Below, in pieces: positions 15,228-18,025 of a stretch of DNA of 18,025 nt (position 1 is the stretch's first letter; every line of letters starts with the position of its first letter). Under the pieces are notes generated by a model that was not told the origin of the DNA, did not search any database, and was given only the letters and a program-made list of their open reading frames with translations. This stretch comes from an uncultured Pseudodesulfovibrio sp. (GTDB lineage Bacteria; Desulfobacterota; Desulfovibrionia; Desulfovibrionales; Desulfovibrionaceae). The position numbers and the translations under genes are program-made. The stretch lies in NCBI GenBank assembly GCA_947259235.1, contig CAMYLL010000012.1, positions 1-18,025 of the forward strand. The letters are read 5' to 3'.

Positions 15228-15560
15228 CTAGAGGATTCCGTCCTCGCCGGTCCTGATGCGCAGGGCCTTGGCAAGCTCGGTCACGAAGATGACGCCGTCA
15301 CCTTCCTTGCCAGTCTGACCGGCGGACTGGATGGCCTCGATGGCCTTGGCCTCGAAGTCGTCATTGACGCCGATCTCAAGGCGAACCTTCTTGAGGAGGT
15401 TCACTTCCATCTGCACGCCGCGGTAGGTCTCCGTGAATCCCTTCTGCCTGCCGGAGCCGAGGATGTTGGTCACTGACAGGGAGTAGATCTCCTTGGCGTA
15501 CAGCGCCTGCTTCACGTCGTTGAGCTTTTCCGGCCTGATGTATGCTATGATGAGCTTCAT
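15228..15560 (-). CDS. glnB: P-II nitrogen regulatory protein
   Basis: A 110-residue P-II trimer subunit that senses 2-oxoglutarate and ATP/ADP and here probably gates the adjacent ammonium transporter. The family core is clear: [12 protein letters not shown] in the T-loop base (37-48), Lys58, [12 protein letters not shown] in the B-loop (81-92) and the C-terminal RIRTGEDG. Residue 51, the uridylylated Tyr in E. coli GlnB, is Met here (YRGVQMEV). GlnD-type uridylylation at that site is therefore impossible and control should be by ligand binding alone. AAGGAG lies 8 bases before the ATG. It is the second gene of the amtB-glnB operon, 41 bases downstream of amtB. A GlnK- or NifI-like name is equally defensible. 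Confidence 0.94.
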
Positions 15561-15601
15561 TTCATTTTCTCCTTATGATGTCTGATGATCTTACTGCTGG
15601 G

Positions 15602-16960
15602 CTACTCGTTGCTGAAGAGCTGGAAGCCGTTGTAGGACTCGCTGCCGTGCTCGGCAATGTCCAGACCCTTGAGCTCTTCTTCCTTTTCCGCACGCAGCCC
15701 GAAGACAGCCTTGATCACAGACATGAGGATGAAACCGCCGCCGAACGCCCAGGCAAAGAACACGCCCACGCCGATGAGCTGCACGCCCAGCTGGCCGAAT
15801 CCGCCGCCGAAGAGCAGGCCGCCGTCAGTGTTGAACAGGCCGCAGGCGATGGTTCCCCAGGCGCCGCACACGCCGTGGACCGAAGTGGCGCCGACCGGGT
15901 CGTCGATCTTCAGGACCTTGTCGATGAACTCGATGGACAGGACAACCAGCACACCGGCGATGAGGCCGATGACCACGGAAGAGGACGGAAGGACGGTGGC
16001 GCAGGGGGCGGTGATGCCGACCAGACCGGCCAGAGCGCCGTTGAGGCTCATGGAGATGTCCGGCTTGCCGAAGCGGAACCAGGAGATGACCATGGCGCCG
16101 AGCACGCCGCCGCAGGCTGCCAGAGAGGTGTTCATGGCGATCAGGCCGATGGTGTCGTCGGCAGTGGTGGTGGAGCCGGGGTTGAAGCCGAACCAGCCGA
16201 ACCAGAGGATGAAGACGCCCAGAGCCGCCAGGGGAATGTTGTGACCGGGAATGGCCTTGGCCTTGCCGTCTTCGGTGTACTTGCCGATACGGGGTCCCAG
16301 GACCATGGCACCGGCCAGGGCGATCCAGCCGCCGACGGAGTGGACAACGGAGGAACCGGCGAAGTCGCAGAAGCCGAGGCCTTCGAGCCAGCCCGCGCCG
16401 TCGTCGCCCAGCCACAGCGAGCCCCAGGCCCAGTGGCCGGAGATGGGGTAGATGATGCCGGTCACCACGATGGAGACCAGGATGTAGCTCGAAAACTTGG
16501 TGCGCTCGGCCATGCCGCCGGAGACGATGGTGGCGGCGGTGGCGGCGAACACGGACTGGAAGAACCAGAAGGTGTAGGTCCAGCCCAGGTCGGCATCGGC
16601 GACGCCGCCCAGCCCGTAGCCGGAGGTGCCGATGAACCCGCCGGCGTCAAGGCCGAACATGATGGCGAAGCCGAACAGGAAAAAGCAGATGGAACCGACG
16701 GAGAAATCCAGCAGGTTCTTCATCATGATGTTGCCGGCGGATTTGGCGCGGGTGAACCCGGCCTCGACACAGGCGAATCCGGCCTGCATGAACATGACCA
16801 GAATGGCCGCGATGAGCGTCCACAGAATGTTGCCGTTGAGCTGGGTGAGATACTCCACCTCTTCAGCGAAGGCGAGGGTCGGCACGAGGACGGCCACCAT
16901 GGCCGCCATTGCGATGGCAACCTTCCTGGACACACGGGTCGGGGACTTGCTAAGAAACAT
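15602..16960 (-). CDS. amtB: Ammonium transporter, Amt family
   Basis: This inner-membrane trimeric channel imports ammonium. The 452-residue protein has a signal peptide (residues about 12-33, ending TLAFA), then eleven predicted membrane helices. Visible signatures are MQAGFACVEAGFTRAKS, FAATAATIVSGGMAERTKF, the family pattern DFAGSSVVHSVGG with the first pore histidine, HGVCGAWGTIACGLF with the second, and the C-terminal GLDIAEHGSESYNGFQ tail that P-II proteins dock to. The ATG at 16960 is preferred over an upstream in-frame codon near 17026 because AAGGAGGAG ends 7 bases before it and the signal peptide follows, and because the sigma-54 promoter at 17010-17025 overlaps the longer version. 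It is co-transcribed with glnB. Confidence 0.96.
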   Translation of the reverse strand: MFLSKSPTRVSRKVAIAMAAMVAVLVPTLAFAEEVEYLTQLNGNILWTLIAAILVMFMQAGFACVEAGFTRAKSAGNIMMKNLLDFSVGSICFFLFGFAIMFGLDAGGFIGTSGYGLGGVADADLGWTYTFWFFQSVFAATAATIVSGGMAERTKFSSYILVSIVVTGIIYPISGHWAWGSLWLGDDGAGWLEGLGFCDFAGSSVVHSVGGWIALAGAMVLGPRIGKYTEDGKAKAIPGHNIPLAALGVFILWFGWFGFNPGSTTTADDTIGLIAMNTSLAACGGVLGAMVISWFRFGKPDISMSLNGALAGLVGITAPCATVLPSSSVVIGLIAGVLVVLSIEFIDKVLKIDDPVGATSVHGVCGAWGTIACGLFNTDGGLLFGGGFGQLGVQLIGVGVFFAWAFGGGFILMSVIKAVFGLRAEKEEELKGLDIAEHGSESYNGFQLFSNE

Positions 16961-17009
16961 TACGGTACTCCTCCTTGAATGGAATGCGTTTCTAACCTGC
17001 GCTCCCCCT

Positions 17010-17025
17010 ATCAAGACCCGTGCCA
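17010..17025 (-). promoter_or_regulatory. Sigma-54 (RpoN) promoter of amtB-glnB
   Basis: On the minus strand the sequence is TGGCACGGGTCTTGAT, matching the -24/-12 consensus TGGCACG-N4-TTGC except A for C in the -12 box. The spacing of the GG and the -12 G is correct. Transcription would start near 17000, giving a leader of about 40 bases before the amtB ATG. Nitrogen-controlled amtB operons commonly use this class of promoter with an NtrC-type activator. Confidence 0.75.
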
Positions 17026-17133
17026 AAACCTATTTTTATTGCTATCAATGTAAAATCATCATTTTGAACCCATTTTTACTGTGTCATTTTTTGCAAAATT
17101 GTTATTTATTACATTTTTGAAACCTCCATATTA

Positions 17134-17146: not shown

Positions 17147-17167
17147 AATCAGTACAAACACCACAAA

Positions 17168-17182
17168 GTGACCGCCGGTCAC
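17168..17182. promoter_or_regulatory. Palindrome 2, GTGACCG-C-CGGTCAC
   Basis: Seven-base perfect arms around one C. The outer GTGA/TCAC half-sites recall Crp/Fnr-family operators, but the gap between them is 7 rather than 6 bases, so family membership is uncertain. It is GC-rich in an otherwise AT-rich stretch, which makes chance less likely. Confidence 0.5.
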
Positions 17183-17184
17183 AT

Positions 17185-17203
17185 AGTATATTAGTAATAT
17201 ACT
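17185..17203. promoter_or_regulatory. Palindrome 3, AGTATATTA-G-TAATATACT
   Basis: Nine-base perfect arms around one G, starting two bases after palindrome 2. A one-base centre rules out a stable hairpin, so a dimeric protein site is the natural reading. It also contains TATACT on both strands, which could serve as a -10 element. Confidence 0.5.
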
Positions 17204-17272
17204 CCATCCACCTGATTTCCCGTTTATTTTTTGGGTTGACAGAATTTCCTGCAAGGAGTACCCATTGTCTCC

Positions 17273-17368
17273 ATGAACACCACCTTTGGCCTTCCCGCAT
17301 ACTTTTCCTCCTTTTATTTTGGATATTGGTATTGCCGCGCTCGCGGTCTCGGGAGAGGTGCACTGTAA
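17273..17368 (+). CDS. Aromatic-rich leader peptide of an attenuator
   Basis: This 31-codon ORF (ATG 17273, TAA 17366-17368) encodes a peptide with Phe at 5, 11, 14 and 16, Tyr at 10, 15, 18 and 20, and Trp at 19. Residues 10-20 read YFSSFYFGYWY, 8 of 11 aromatic. AAGGAG at 17253-17258 is 14 bases upstream, longer than usual; a rare ATT start at 17264 would be better spaced. It precedes an alternative RNA structure and terminator in front of an aromatic-pathway gene. Its likely role is as a sensor: ribosome stalling at Phe/Tyr/Trp codons when charged tRNA is short. The peptide product itself probably has no function. The assignment is inference from composition and context, but the coincidence is very strong. 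Confidence 0.85.
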   Translation: MNTTFGLPAYFSSFYFGYWYCRARGLGRGAL

Positions 17369-17420
17369 GCCAGGTGGTGGATTACTAGCTAAAAAAGAAC
17401 CTCTTCAAGGGCCGCGGGCG
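17338..17420 (+). promoter_or_regulatory. Antiterminator helix of the aromatic attenuator
   Basis: Bases 17338-17349 can pair with 17409-17420 (12 pairs, three G-U). After a 2x2 internal loop, 17352-17359 can pair with 17399-17406 (8 pairs, one G-U). The 3' arm covers nearly all of the 5' arm of the terminator (17406-17419), so the two structures exclude each other. The 5' arm starts at leader codons 22-23, just past the aromatic run. It would be masked by a ribosome that reaches the stop codon at 17366, allowing the terminator to form. Confidence 0.7.
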
Positions 17421-17445
17421 AAAGCCGGCGGCCCTTGTTTTTTTT
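17406..17445 (+). terminator. Intrinsic terminator (attenuator) before the ADTH synthase gene
   Basis: CAAGGGCCGCGGGC (17406-17419) pairs with GCCGGCGGCCCTTG (17424-17437) with one mismatch around a GAAA loop, and eight Ts follow (17438-17445). It lies upstream of the gene it would control and downstream of a short leader ORF, the layout of an attenuator rather than of an end-of-operon terminator. Confidence 0.9.
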
Positions 17446-17511
17446 CCAGGGCTCCGTCGGCGAACAGGCAAACGCCAGGGCACGCAGAAGGGACAACCGC
17501 AGGAGAACGAC

Positions 17512-18025
17512 ATGCATATCGGAAAAGCAATCAGGCTGGAGAGGATCTTCAACAGAAACACAGGCAGAACGATCGTCGTGCCCATGGACCACGGCGTCAC
17601 GGTCGGCCCCATCGACGGACTCGTGGACATGCGGGAAGCCGTCGGCAAGGTGGTTGACGGCGGCGCGAACGCGGTCATCGAGCACAAGGGCCTTGTCCGC
17701 TGCGGCCACAGGGCCACGGGCAAAGACATCGGCCTCATCGTCCACCTCTCAGCCTCCACCTCCCTCTCCCCCTTCCCCAACGCAAAGAGCCTTGTCGCCA
17801 CCGTAGAAGACGCCATGCGCCTGGGCGCGGACGCCGTCTCCATCCACTGCAACCTCGGCGACGAGACGGAATCCGCCATGCTGGCCGATTTCGGCAAGGT
17901 CGCTTCCGAGGCCTCCAACTGGGGCATGCCGCTGCTGGCCATGGTCTACGCGCGCGGCCCCAAGGTCTCCGACGAATACGCCCCCGAGGTGGTGGCCCAC
18001 TGCGCACGCGTCGGCACCGAGCTGG
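17512..18025 (+). CDS. 2-amino-3,7-dideoxy-D-threo-hept-6-ulosonate synthase (ADTH synthase), 3' end outside the window
   Basis: This class I aldolase-like enzyme makes the seven-carbon precursor of 3-dehydroquinate in the archaeal-type shikimate route, replacing DAHP synthase. The first 171 residues (of about 265) are present: [16 protein letters not shown] with Asp26-His27, [46 protein letters not shown] and MVYARG with Tyr146. These match the Methanocaldococcus MJ0400-type family closely. The Schiff-base lysine lies beyond the edge. AGGAG at 17501-17505 sets the ATG at 17512. The upstream aromatic leader and attenuator support the aromatic role over a plain fructose-bisphosphate aldolase. 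In Desulfovibrio species I recall this gene leading a long aromatic/tryptophan operon, so the operon probably continues past the window. Confidence 0.9.

Follow-up and report, generated by a model that had tools for sequence, protein, structure and literature searches.

Genomic Setting of the Leader

The window, meaning the whole stretch of 18,025 nucleotides analyzed here, is an entire contig (G000:C12) of an incomplete genome (474 contigs, 82.8% completeness). Near its end it carries, on the forward strand, a short leader open reading frame (ORF), a set of predicted RNA helices, and the beginning of a gene for 2-amino-3,7-dideoxy-D-threo-hept-6-ulosonate synthase (ADTH synthase, ADTHS; 17512..18025); the contig end at 18025 falls within this gene, whose 3′ part is lost, and the operon downstream is invisible in the window. 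The truncated 171-aa product matches Pfam DeoC, and its full-length relative L005 (94% identical) scores above the NCBIfam equivalog cut-off for ADTHS (TIGR01949; 394.2 bits vs. 299.45); judged by these matches the gene encodes an ADTHS-type aldolase, in agreement with the initial annotation, which had named ADTH synthase as the gene following the leader. In L005, the operon has the order ADTHS, DHQS II, pheA, aroA, tyrA, trpE, trpG, trpD, trpC, trpF (NCBIfam assignments), and many other relatives share this order as far as their contigs extend.

Genes for a P-II protein and an ammonium transporter (15228–17026, reverse strand) adjoin the operon in divergent orientation. A palindrome, GTGACCGCCGGTCAC, lies at 17168–17182, about 105 nt upstream of the leader ATG; its pattern TGACC-n-CGGTC is present in 13 of the 16 close relatives printed, even where the flanks differ (L004, L087), and it is a possible candidate operator for some transcription factor.

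The Leader Open Reading Frame

The leader ORF (17273..17368, forward strand) comprises 31 codons plus TAA, with the translation MNTTFGLPAYFSSFYFGYWYCRARGLGRGAL, and is kept in relatives. It holds nine aromatic residues, eight of them in the run YFSSFYFGYWY (3 Phe, 4 Tyr, and 1 Trp; 17300..17332), which are taken as the regulatory codons; the ORF and the run were found as the initial annotation had described them. Of 3000 dinucleotide shuffles made from the window’s own upstream region, 15 reached at least eight aromatics within 14 residues. When the regions upstream of ADTHS genes were compared across relatives, a short ORF with at least seven aromatics in 14 residues occurred in 128 of 184 regions (some species are included twice, taken from two collections), vs. 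22 of 9323 real stretches taken from other parts of these loci and 13 of 1840 upstream regions after shuffling. The conservation of an aromatic-rich ORF that had been proposed as a check was thereby observed, and a chance ORF was rejected on the contrast with the 9323 control stretches. The element thus has the dense run of regulatory codons within a short leader ORF that is typical of ribosome-mediated attenuators.

Antiterminator, Terminator and Protector Hairpin

Directly past the aromatic run, a 5′ antiterminator strand (strand 2, 17338..17359, ending in a toehold AGAGGU at 17354–17359) is predicted to pair with a 3′ strand (strand 3, 17399..17420) at 20 of 22 positions, an assignment based on pairing, alignment, and nascent-RNA folding. 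An intrinsic terminator (17406..17445), identified by pairing and conservation, consists of a hairpin in which 13 of 14 positions are paired (17406–17419 with 17424–17437, a GAAA loop, and a single G·G mismatch at 17416/17427), followed by eight Ts at 17438–17445; the hairpin ends 75 nt upstream of the ADTHS start. Both the 20-pair antiterminator and the near-perfect terminator that the initial annotation had proposed are thus in place. A small protector hairpin (17335..17346; 17335–17338 with 17343–17346) would by analogy be the counterpart of the 1:2 hairpin in trp attenuators; over 55 relatives, 72.7% of its cells are paired, hence it is not universal, and one pair covaries (GC 24, AU 16, GU 5, and unpaired 10 of 55).

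Folding of the leader region with structure prediction, also suggested as a check, gave a 198-nt fold with z = −3.1, none of 200 shuffles being equally stable; relative to shuffled versions of the leader strand, the duplex between the segment past the run and the terminator 5′ side reached z = −5.2. The predicted fold contains a further helix, 17277–17290 with 17369–17380 (CACCACC/GGTGGTG), that connects the leader start to the region after the stop codon.

The mixed-codon alignment (A1) holds 55 of 96 distinct segments, a set from which loci with fewer than six aromatics, or whose duplex was weak at z above −2.5, had already been removed. Within it, the antiterminator pair between columns 22 and 109 (n = 54) appears as CG 23, UA 21, UG 6, AU 3, and unpaired 1, yet column 109 is unpaired within the terminator in 45 of the 54 sequences, which shows that the antiterminator is under selection independent of the terminator. 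In the window, the pair 17342/17416 is part of the antiterminator and is left unpaired in the terminator. In the terminator, changes on both sides were found at 5 of 13 positions, the column-109 position among them, so that the mutually exclusive helices proposed initially both show compensatory changes. The helices are also kept in leaders before stand-alone ADTHS genes: the Phe-only alignment (A3, 17 of 21 loci) has 99.4% of antiterminator and 98.2% of terminator cells paired, and the Tyr-only alignment (A2, 15 of 18 loci, with the omitted locus L113 pairing poorly) has 89.3 and 80.0%, respectively.

Rfam searches yielded no match in the window at the gathering threshold; the region 17150–17520 gave eight weak matches, with leader families (trp, phe, and other) and the T-box not among them. 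An Rfam leader family or T-box identity was rejected, as no such match in the window reached the curated score.

Codon Content and Downstream Genes

Across the loci compared, the codon content of the leader follows the genes downstream, with Phe, Tyr, and Trp codons preceding the combined operon. Among operon loci whose sequence continues for 9 kb or more downstream, the run includes a Trp codon at 48 of the 48 that contain trpE and two or more at 33 of these 48, vs. two or more at 0 of 20 that lack trpE; two to four independent evolutionary pairs back this link. Where trpE is located separately, an upstream ORF with at least three Trp in ten residues (e.g., GWWWR) was counted at 8 of 11 loci; two of the remaining loci have just two Trp, a level also reached by other ORFs there, and one has none.

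Leaders of stand-alone ADTHS paralogs are Phe-only (such as RFFFFFSF), Tyr-only (such as SYYYYG), in a few cases Phe/Tyr, or absent. When the hand-labelled classes are placed on a tree built with FastTree from 228 ADTHS proteins, the Phe class requires three changes and the Tyr class two. Labelled loci are at hand for 79 family genomes, of which 14 combine mixed copies, Phe copies, and copies lacking a leader and 16 combine mixed and Tyr; Phe and Tyr classes occur together in none of the 79, among the ADTHS copies included. Nine of nine other sampled genomes of the window’s genus have the set of mixed, Phe, and none. In the window’s own genome, two ADTHS copies were found; the Phe-type copy was not found, nor was DHQS II, an absence that shows little at 474 contigs and 82.8% completeness, and the incomplete assembly may explain both. 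A pattern search of this genome for the Phe-type element produced seven one-mismatch matches (four forward, three reverse) vs. four for the reversed control pattern, and no Phe-type element is therefore credited to it.

Phe and Tyr are preferentially encoded by U-ending codons in the leaders (UUU in 448 of 616 Phe codons, UAU in 245 of 398 Tyr codons), vs. AAU in 44 of 212 Asn and CAU in 19 of 88 His codons of the same leaders; U-ending codons are fairly common there for Asp (19/44) and Cys (51/154) as well. In ADTHS genes, UUU accounts for 167 of 800 Phe codons. Synonymous codon choice affects attenuator sensitivity, as described in PMC1183508.

As a caveat, the terminator finder needs a near-unbroken T tract and sometimes chose the wrong ORF; 26 locus classes were therefore to be read as hand-set, 12 from the viewed sequence and the others from the peptide. 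Under the automatic rule, a leader was lacking at 31 of the 175 loci with the operon and at 38 of the 75 stand-alone ones, counts that precede the hand labelling; the class changes on the FastTree tree and the genome-set counts follow it. Some of the loci without a leader are finder misses; in other cases, such as several distant families and the third paralog of ADTHS, the leader seems to be genuinely absent. For the third paralog of the genus (L002 and related), a leader was not found; distant ADTHS aldolase paralogs, with 34–42% identity, occur in several genomes.

The Symporter Version

When 11 genomes, some of which also gave training rows, were searched with a covariance model of the element, at least 25 matches with E < 1e-10 were returned from 150 candidates scored per genome, and further copies may exist. 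The matches listed comprise 11 before the mixed operon, six before Phe-type ADTHS, two before Tyr-type ADTHS, and six before an SSF-family sodium/solute symporter; their targets are solely ADTHS genes and this one symporter. Five of the next matches (E 2e-6 to 6e-6) were inspected, and the aromatic run was absent from them. At L319, the case examined, a 44-aa ORF lies between element and symporter.

The symporter was found in 24 of 99 family-sample genomes, and 16 of its 26 loci carry a leader rich in Phe or Tyr, the other 10 having none. Phe-/Tyr-rich leaders and terminators were seen before the symporter at L307–L312, L319, L327–L333, L335–L338, L342, L343, and L350–L352. Two genomes have tandem symporters with homologous leaders: in G079, the runs FFAFFGFR and FYAYYGYR differ at 5 of 24 bases, four of which convert Phe to Tyr, and in G057 the leaders end in FAFFGFR and YAYYGYR. 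Symporters with Phe-/Tyr-rich leaders are predicted, from this codon content, to import Phe and Tyr. The window’s own genome has the symporter as well; the available sequence stops 153 nt upstream of it. The initial view of an element serving a single operon is borne out insofar as the combined operon exists in relatives; its scope was too narrow, since isozyme-, trp-, and transporter-specific versions exist.

Distribution Across the Phylum

ADTHS matches at E 1e-3 or better were obtained in 140 of 149 family genomes; a phylum sample gave 179 of 297, many of them weak matches to distant aldolases. Outside the family, a Tyr/Phe-rich leader precedes ADTHS–DHQS II in members of many other families of the phylum; some phylum ADTHS operons, for example in family f28, show no such leader. 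A leader-like run, YFYSYFWFYYYYSY, lies upstream of a spirochaete ADTHS locus (L062), where the leader was possibly acquired by transfer.

Attenuation and Alternative Explanations

Judged by its parts, their conservation, the compensatory pairing, and the codon content matched to downstream genes, the element is very probably a real ribosome-mediated transcription attenuator. Nascent-peptide sensing in the manner of TnaC, in which a free amino acid, and not codon starvation, would trigger arrest of the ribosome by the aromatic peptide, could draw on the well-conserved peptide tail past the run (RARGLGRG or ACGLGV); however, the antiterminator strand is the sequence that encodes this tail, which explains why the tail is conserved, whereas the residues of the run itself vary widely among lineages and the density of aromatics alone is retained. 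The U-ending codon preference for Phe and Tyr and the correspondence of run composition to the downstream genes also speak against peptide sensing, which is very improbable. Translational control, with the RNA masking the ADTHS ribosome-binding site and transcription continuing, would fit the location of the leader in the 5′ region of ADTHS; it can hardly apply to a hairpin that has eight Ts behind it and lies 75 nt away from the start of ADTHS, and T-rich tails 3′ of the hairpin recur in most relatives scanned, some tracts being interrupted. A constitutive terminator, a small RNA, or a small membrane peptide gene that merely precedes ADTHS could draw on the best weak Rfam match, the sRNA model BjrC68, which is below threshold (24.2 bits vs. 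39, E 0.0003); such an arrangement is extremely unlikely in view of the compensatory change seen in the antiterminator at a pair left open in the terminator, and of codon content that tracks the downstream genes.

Within the attenuation reading, the start of the leader transcript has to be considered separately. The predicted promoter (17236..17264, forward strand, called from sequence) consists of TTGACA at 17236–17241, a 17-nt spacer, and the TA-type hexamer TACCCA at 17259–17264, which would place the transcript start at approximately 17271–17273, either on the leader ATG itself or a few nt from it. An exact TTGACA lies 35–40 nt upstream of the leader ATG in 101 of 143 family leaders vs. 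2 of 39 outside the family; the best-placed −10 hexamer starts with TA in 94 of these 101, and the gap from hexamer to ATG is 6–8 nt in 90 leaders of the TA-type set. For these calls, the in-frame ATG with the best TTGACA at 26–47 nt was chosen, and the −10 was the best of three spacers; since ATG and hexamer were chosen for fit, the pattern is flattered. Shine-Dalgarno-like motifs precede 20 of 143 family leaders vs. 169 of 183 ADTHS genes. The leader mRNA is accordingly predicted to be leaderless, beginning at or next to its AUG, and AAGGAG at 17253–17258 is probably promoter spacer, given the TTGACA/TA spacing, and not a ribosome-binding site. An attenuator with an ordinary 5′ untranslated region, in which AAGGAG does serve as the ribosome-binding site, is a less likely arrangement that still deserves some weight: the motif exists in the window, 20 family leaders have one like it, the −10 hexamers are poor past TA (a final T in 12 of 101), and the selection for fit noted above applies. 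It is opposed by the recurrence of TTGACA at a fixed distance in family leaders vs. others, and by the regular presence of Shine-Dalgarno-like motifs before the ADTHS genes themselves. A consensus promoter and terminator scan reported neither the leader’s promoter, with its poor −10, nor its terminator, with its internal mismatch.

Proposed Mechanism

Under attenuation with a leaderless start, a ribosome would engage the leader AUG once RNA polymerase clears the promoter. With charged Phe, Tyr, and Trp tRNAs plentiful, it would clear 17300–17332, reach the stop codon at 17366, and cover the toehold at 17354–17359, while the remaining strand 2 sequence would be sequestered in the protector hairpin; the terminator hairpin could then fold, and transcription would end near 17445. 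If any of the three amino acids were scarce, we infer that the ribosome would stall on the run and leave strand 2 free to capture the emerging strand 3 before strand 4 exists, so that polymerase would read through to ADTHS and, in relatives, also to the phe, tyr, and trp genes. The presence of codons for all three amino acids in the run, together with the combined operon of relatives, supports the original suggestion of one attenuator sensing Phe, Tyr, and Trp for a combined aromatic operon.

Nascent-RNA folding is consistent with this sequence of events. As long as strand 2 is free, RNAs whose 3′ ends lie between 17420 and 17431 have the antiterminator core at P 0.98–1.00; a ribosome on the stop codon, represented by letting the RNA fold from 17379 onward, leads to the terminator. 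The antiterminator also appears for a while without any ribosome. As soon as the RNA extends to 17437, equilibrium favours the terminator in all modelled states (P 0.97–1.00), so that, if the modelling holds, the switch must be kinetic.

Comparison With Known Systems

The initial annotation named no described case for ADTHS, yet the locus is not entirely without precedent. Table 7 of PMC1173090 (2005) lists, from a prediction website, a putative attenuator before Desulfovibrio vulgaris aroA′>aroB′>aroQ-pheA>aroF>tyrA>[trp operon]; the operon is the one considered here, in a member of the same family, and the listed attenuator is most likely the same element. The term “leader peptide” does not occur in the main text of that paper, and compared with the listing, the leader peptide, the codon logic, the paralog versions, and the comparative proof are provided only here. 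In the literature covered, which includes subscription journals thinly, no description of the leader peptide or of paralog-specific or symporter versions was found. Published transcriptomes indicate that aromatic genes of these sulfate reducers move together: the Desulfovibrio hydrothermalis cluster DESAMv2_21548–21557, whose first gene, an aldolase, is taken for ADTHS, goes down as a whole under high pressure (PMC4162548), and in D. desulfuricans a trp cluster is nitrate-induced and an aromatic cluster is up with NO, the nitrate effect being regarded as unexplained by the authors (PMC5701242).

On balance, it seems somewhat probable that in Desulfovibrionaceae one reusable attenuator chassis with swappable codons and leaderless leader mRNAs runs much of the aromatic network: Phe/Tyr/Trp versions would control the full operon, Phe-only and Tyr-only versions the ADTHS isozymes, Trp versions the split trp operons, and Phe or Tyr versions the symporters, which would thereby be Phe/Tyr importers; rewiring would take few codon swaps, as between FFAFFGFR and FYAYYGYR. 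Sulfate reducers would gain a concrete system of aromatic amino acid control that can be tested, in which leader codon content is linked to gene function across many genera and the element predicts substrates for a symporter; duplicated attenuators that differ chiefly in Phe vs. Tyr are natural specificity-swap experiments. Mixed codons have a parallel in ilv leaders, which combine codons of several amino acids, and attenuators of proteobacteria were reportedly treated by Vitreschak et al. in 2004.

The mechanism itself is already known in kind; the codon-tuned copies across the aromatic network are new. The enterobacterial trp, his, and pheA attenuators, as presented in PMC1183508, share with the present element a leader ORF with regulatory codons, the strand order 1-2-3-4, the mutually exclusive antiterminator and terminator, the T tract, and control of the matching pathway. 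In contrast to these, the element described here has one run for three amino acids, U-ending Phe and Tyr codons, an archaeal-type entry enzyme under its control, a predicted leaderless start, and copies re-tuned for isozymes and a transporter. In Sinorhizobium meliloti, the trpL transcript begins with the leader ATG, yielding the leaderless rnTrpL (PMC7298713); an attenuator transcript starting at the leader ATG would be a common trait, established by experiment and for Trp only in S. meliloti, whereas here it is predicted from promoter spacing, with mixed, Phe-only, and Tyr-only versions. Finally, the Escherichia coli isozymes AroF, AroG, and AroH (PMC5343134) are likewise entry-step enzymes that are each linked to one aromatic amino acid; there, the link is made by feedback inhibition and the DNA-binding repressors TyrR and TrpR, whereas here it would be made by Phe-only or Tyr-only codons before the ADTHS copies.
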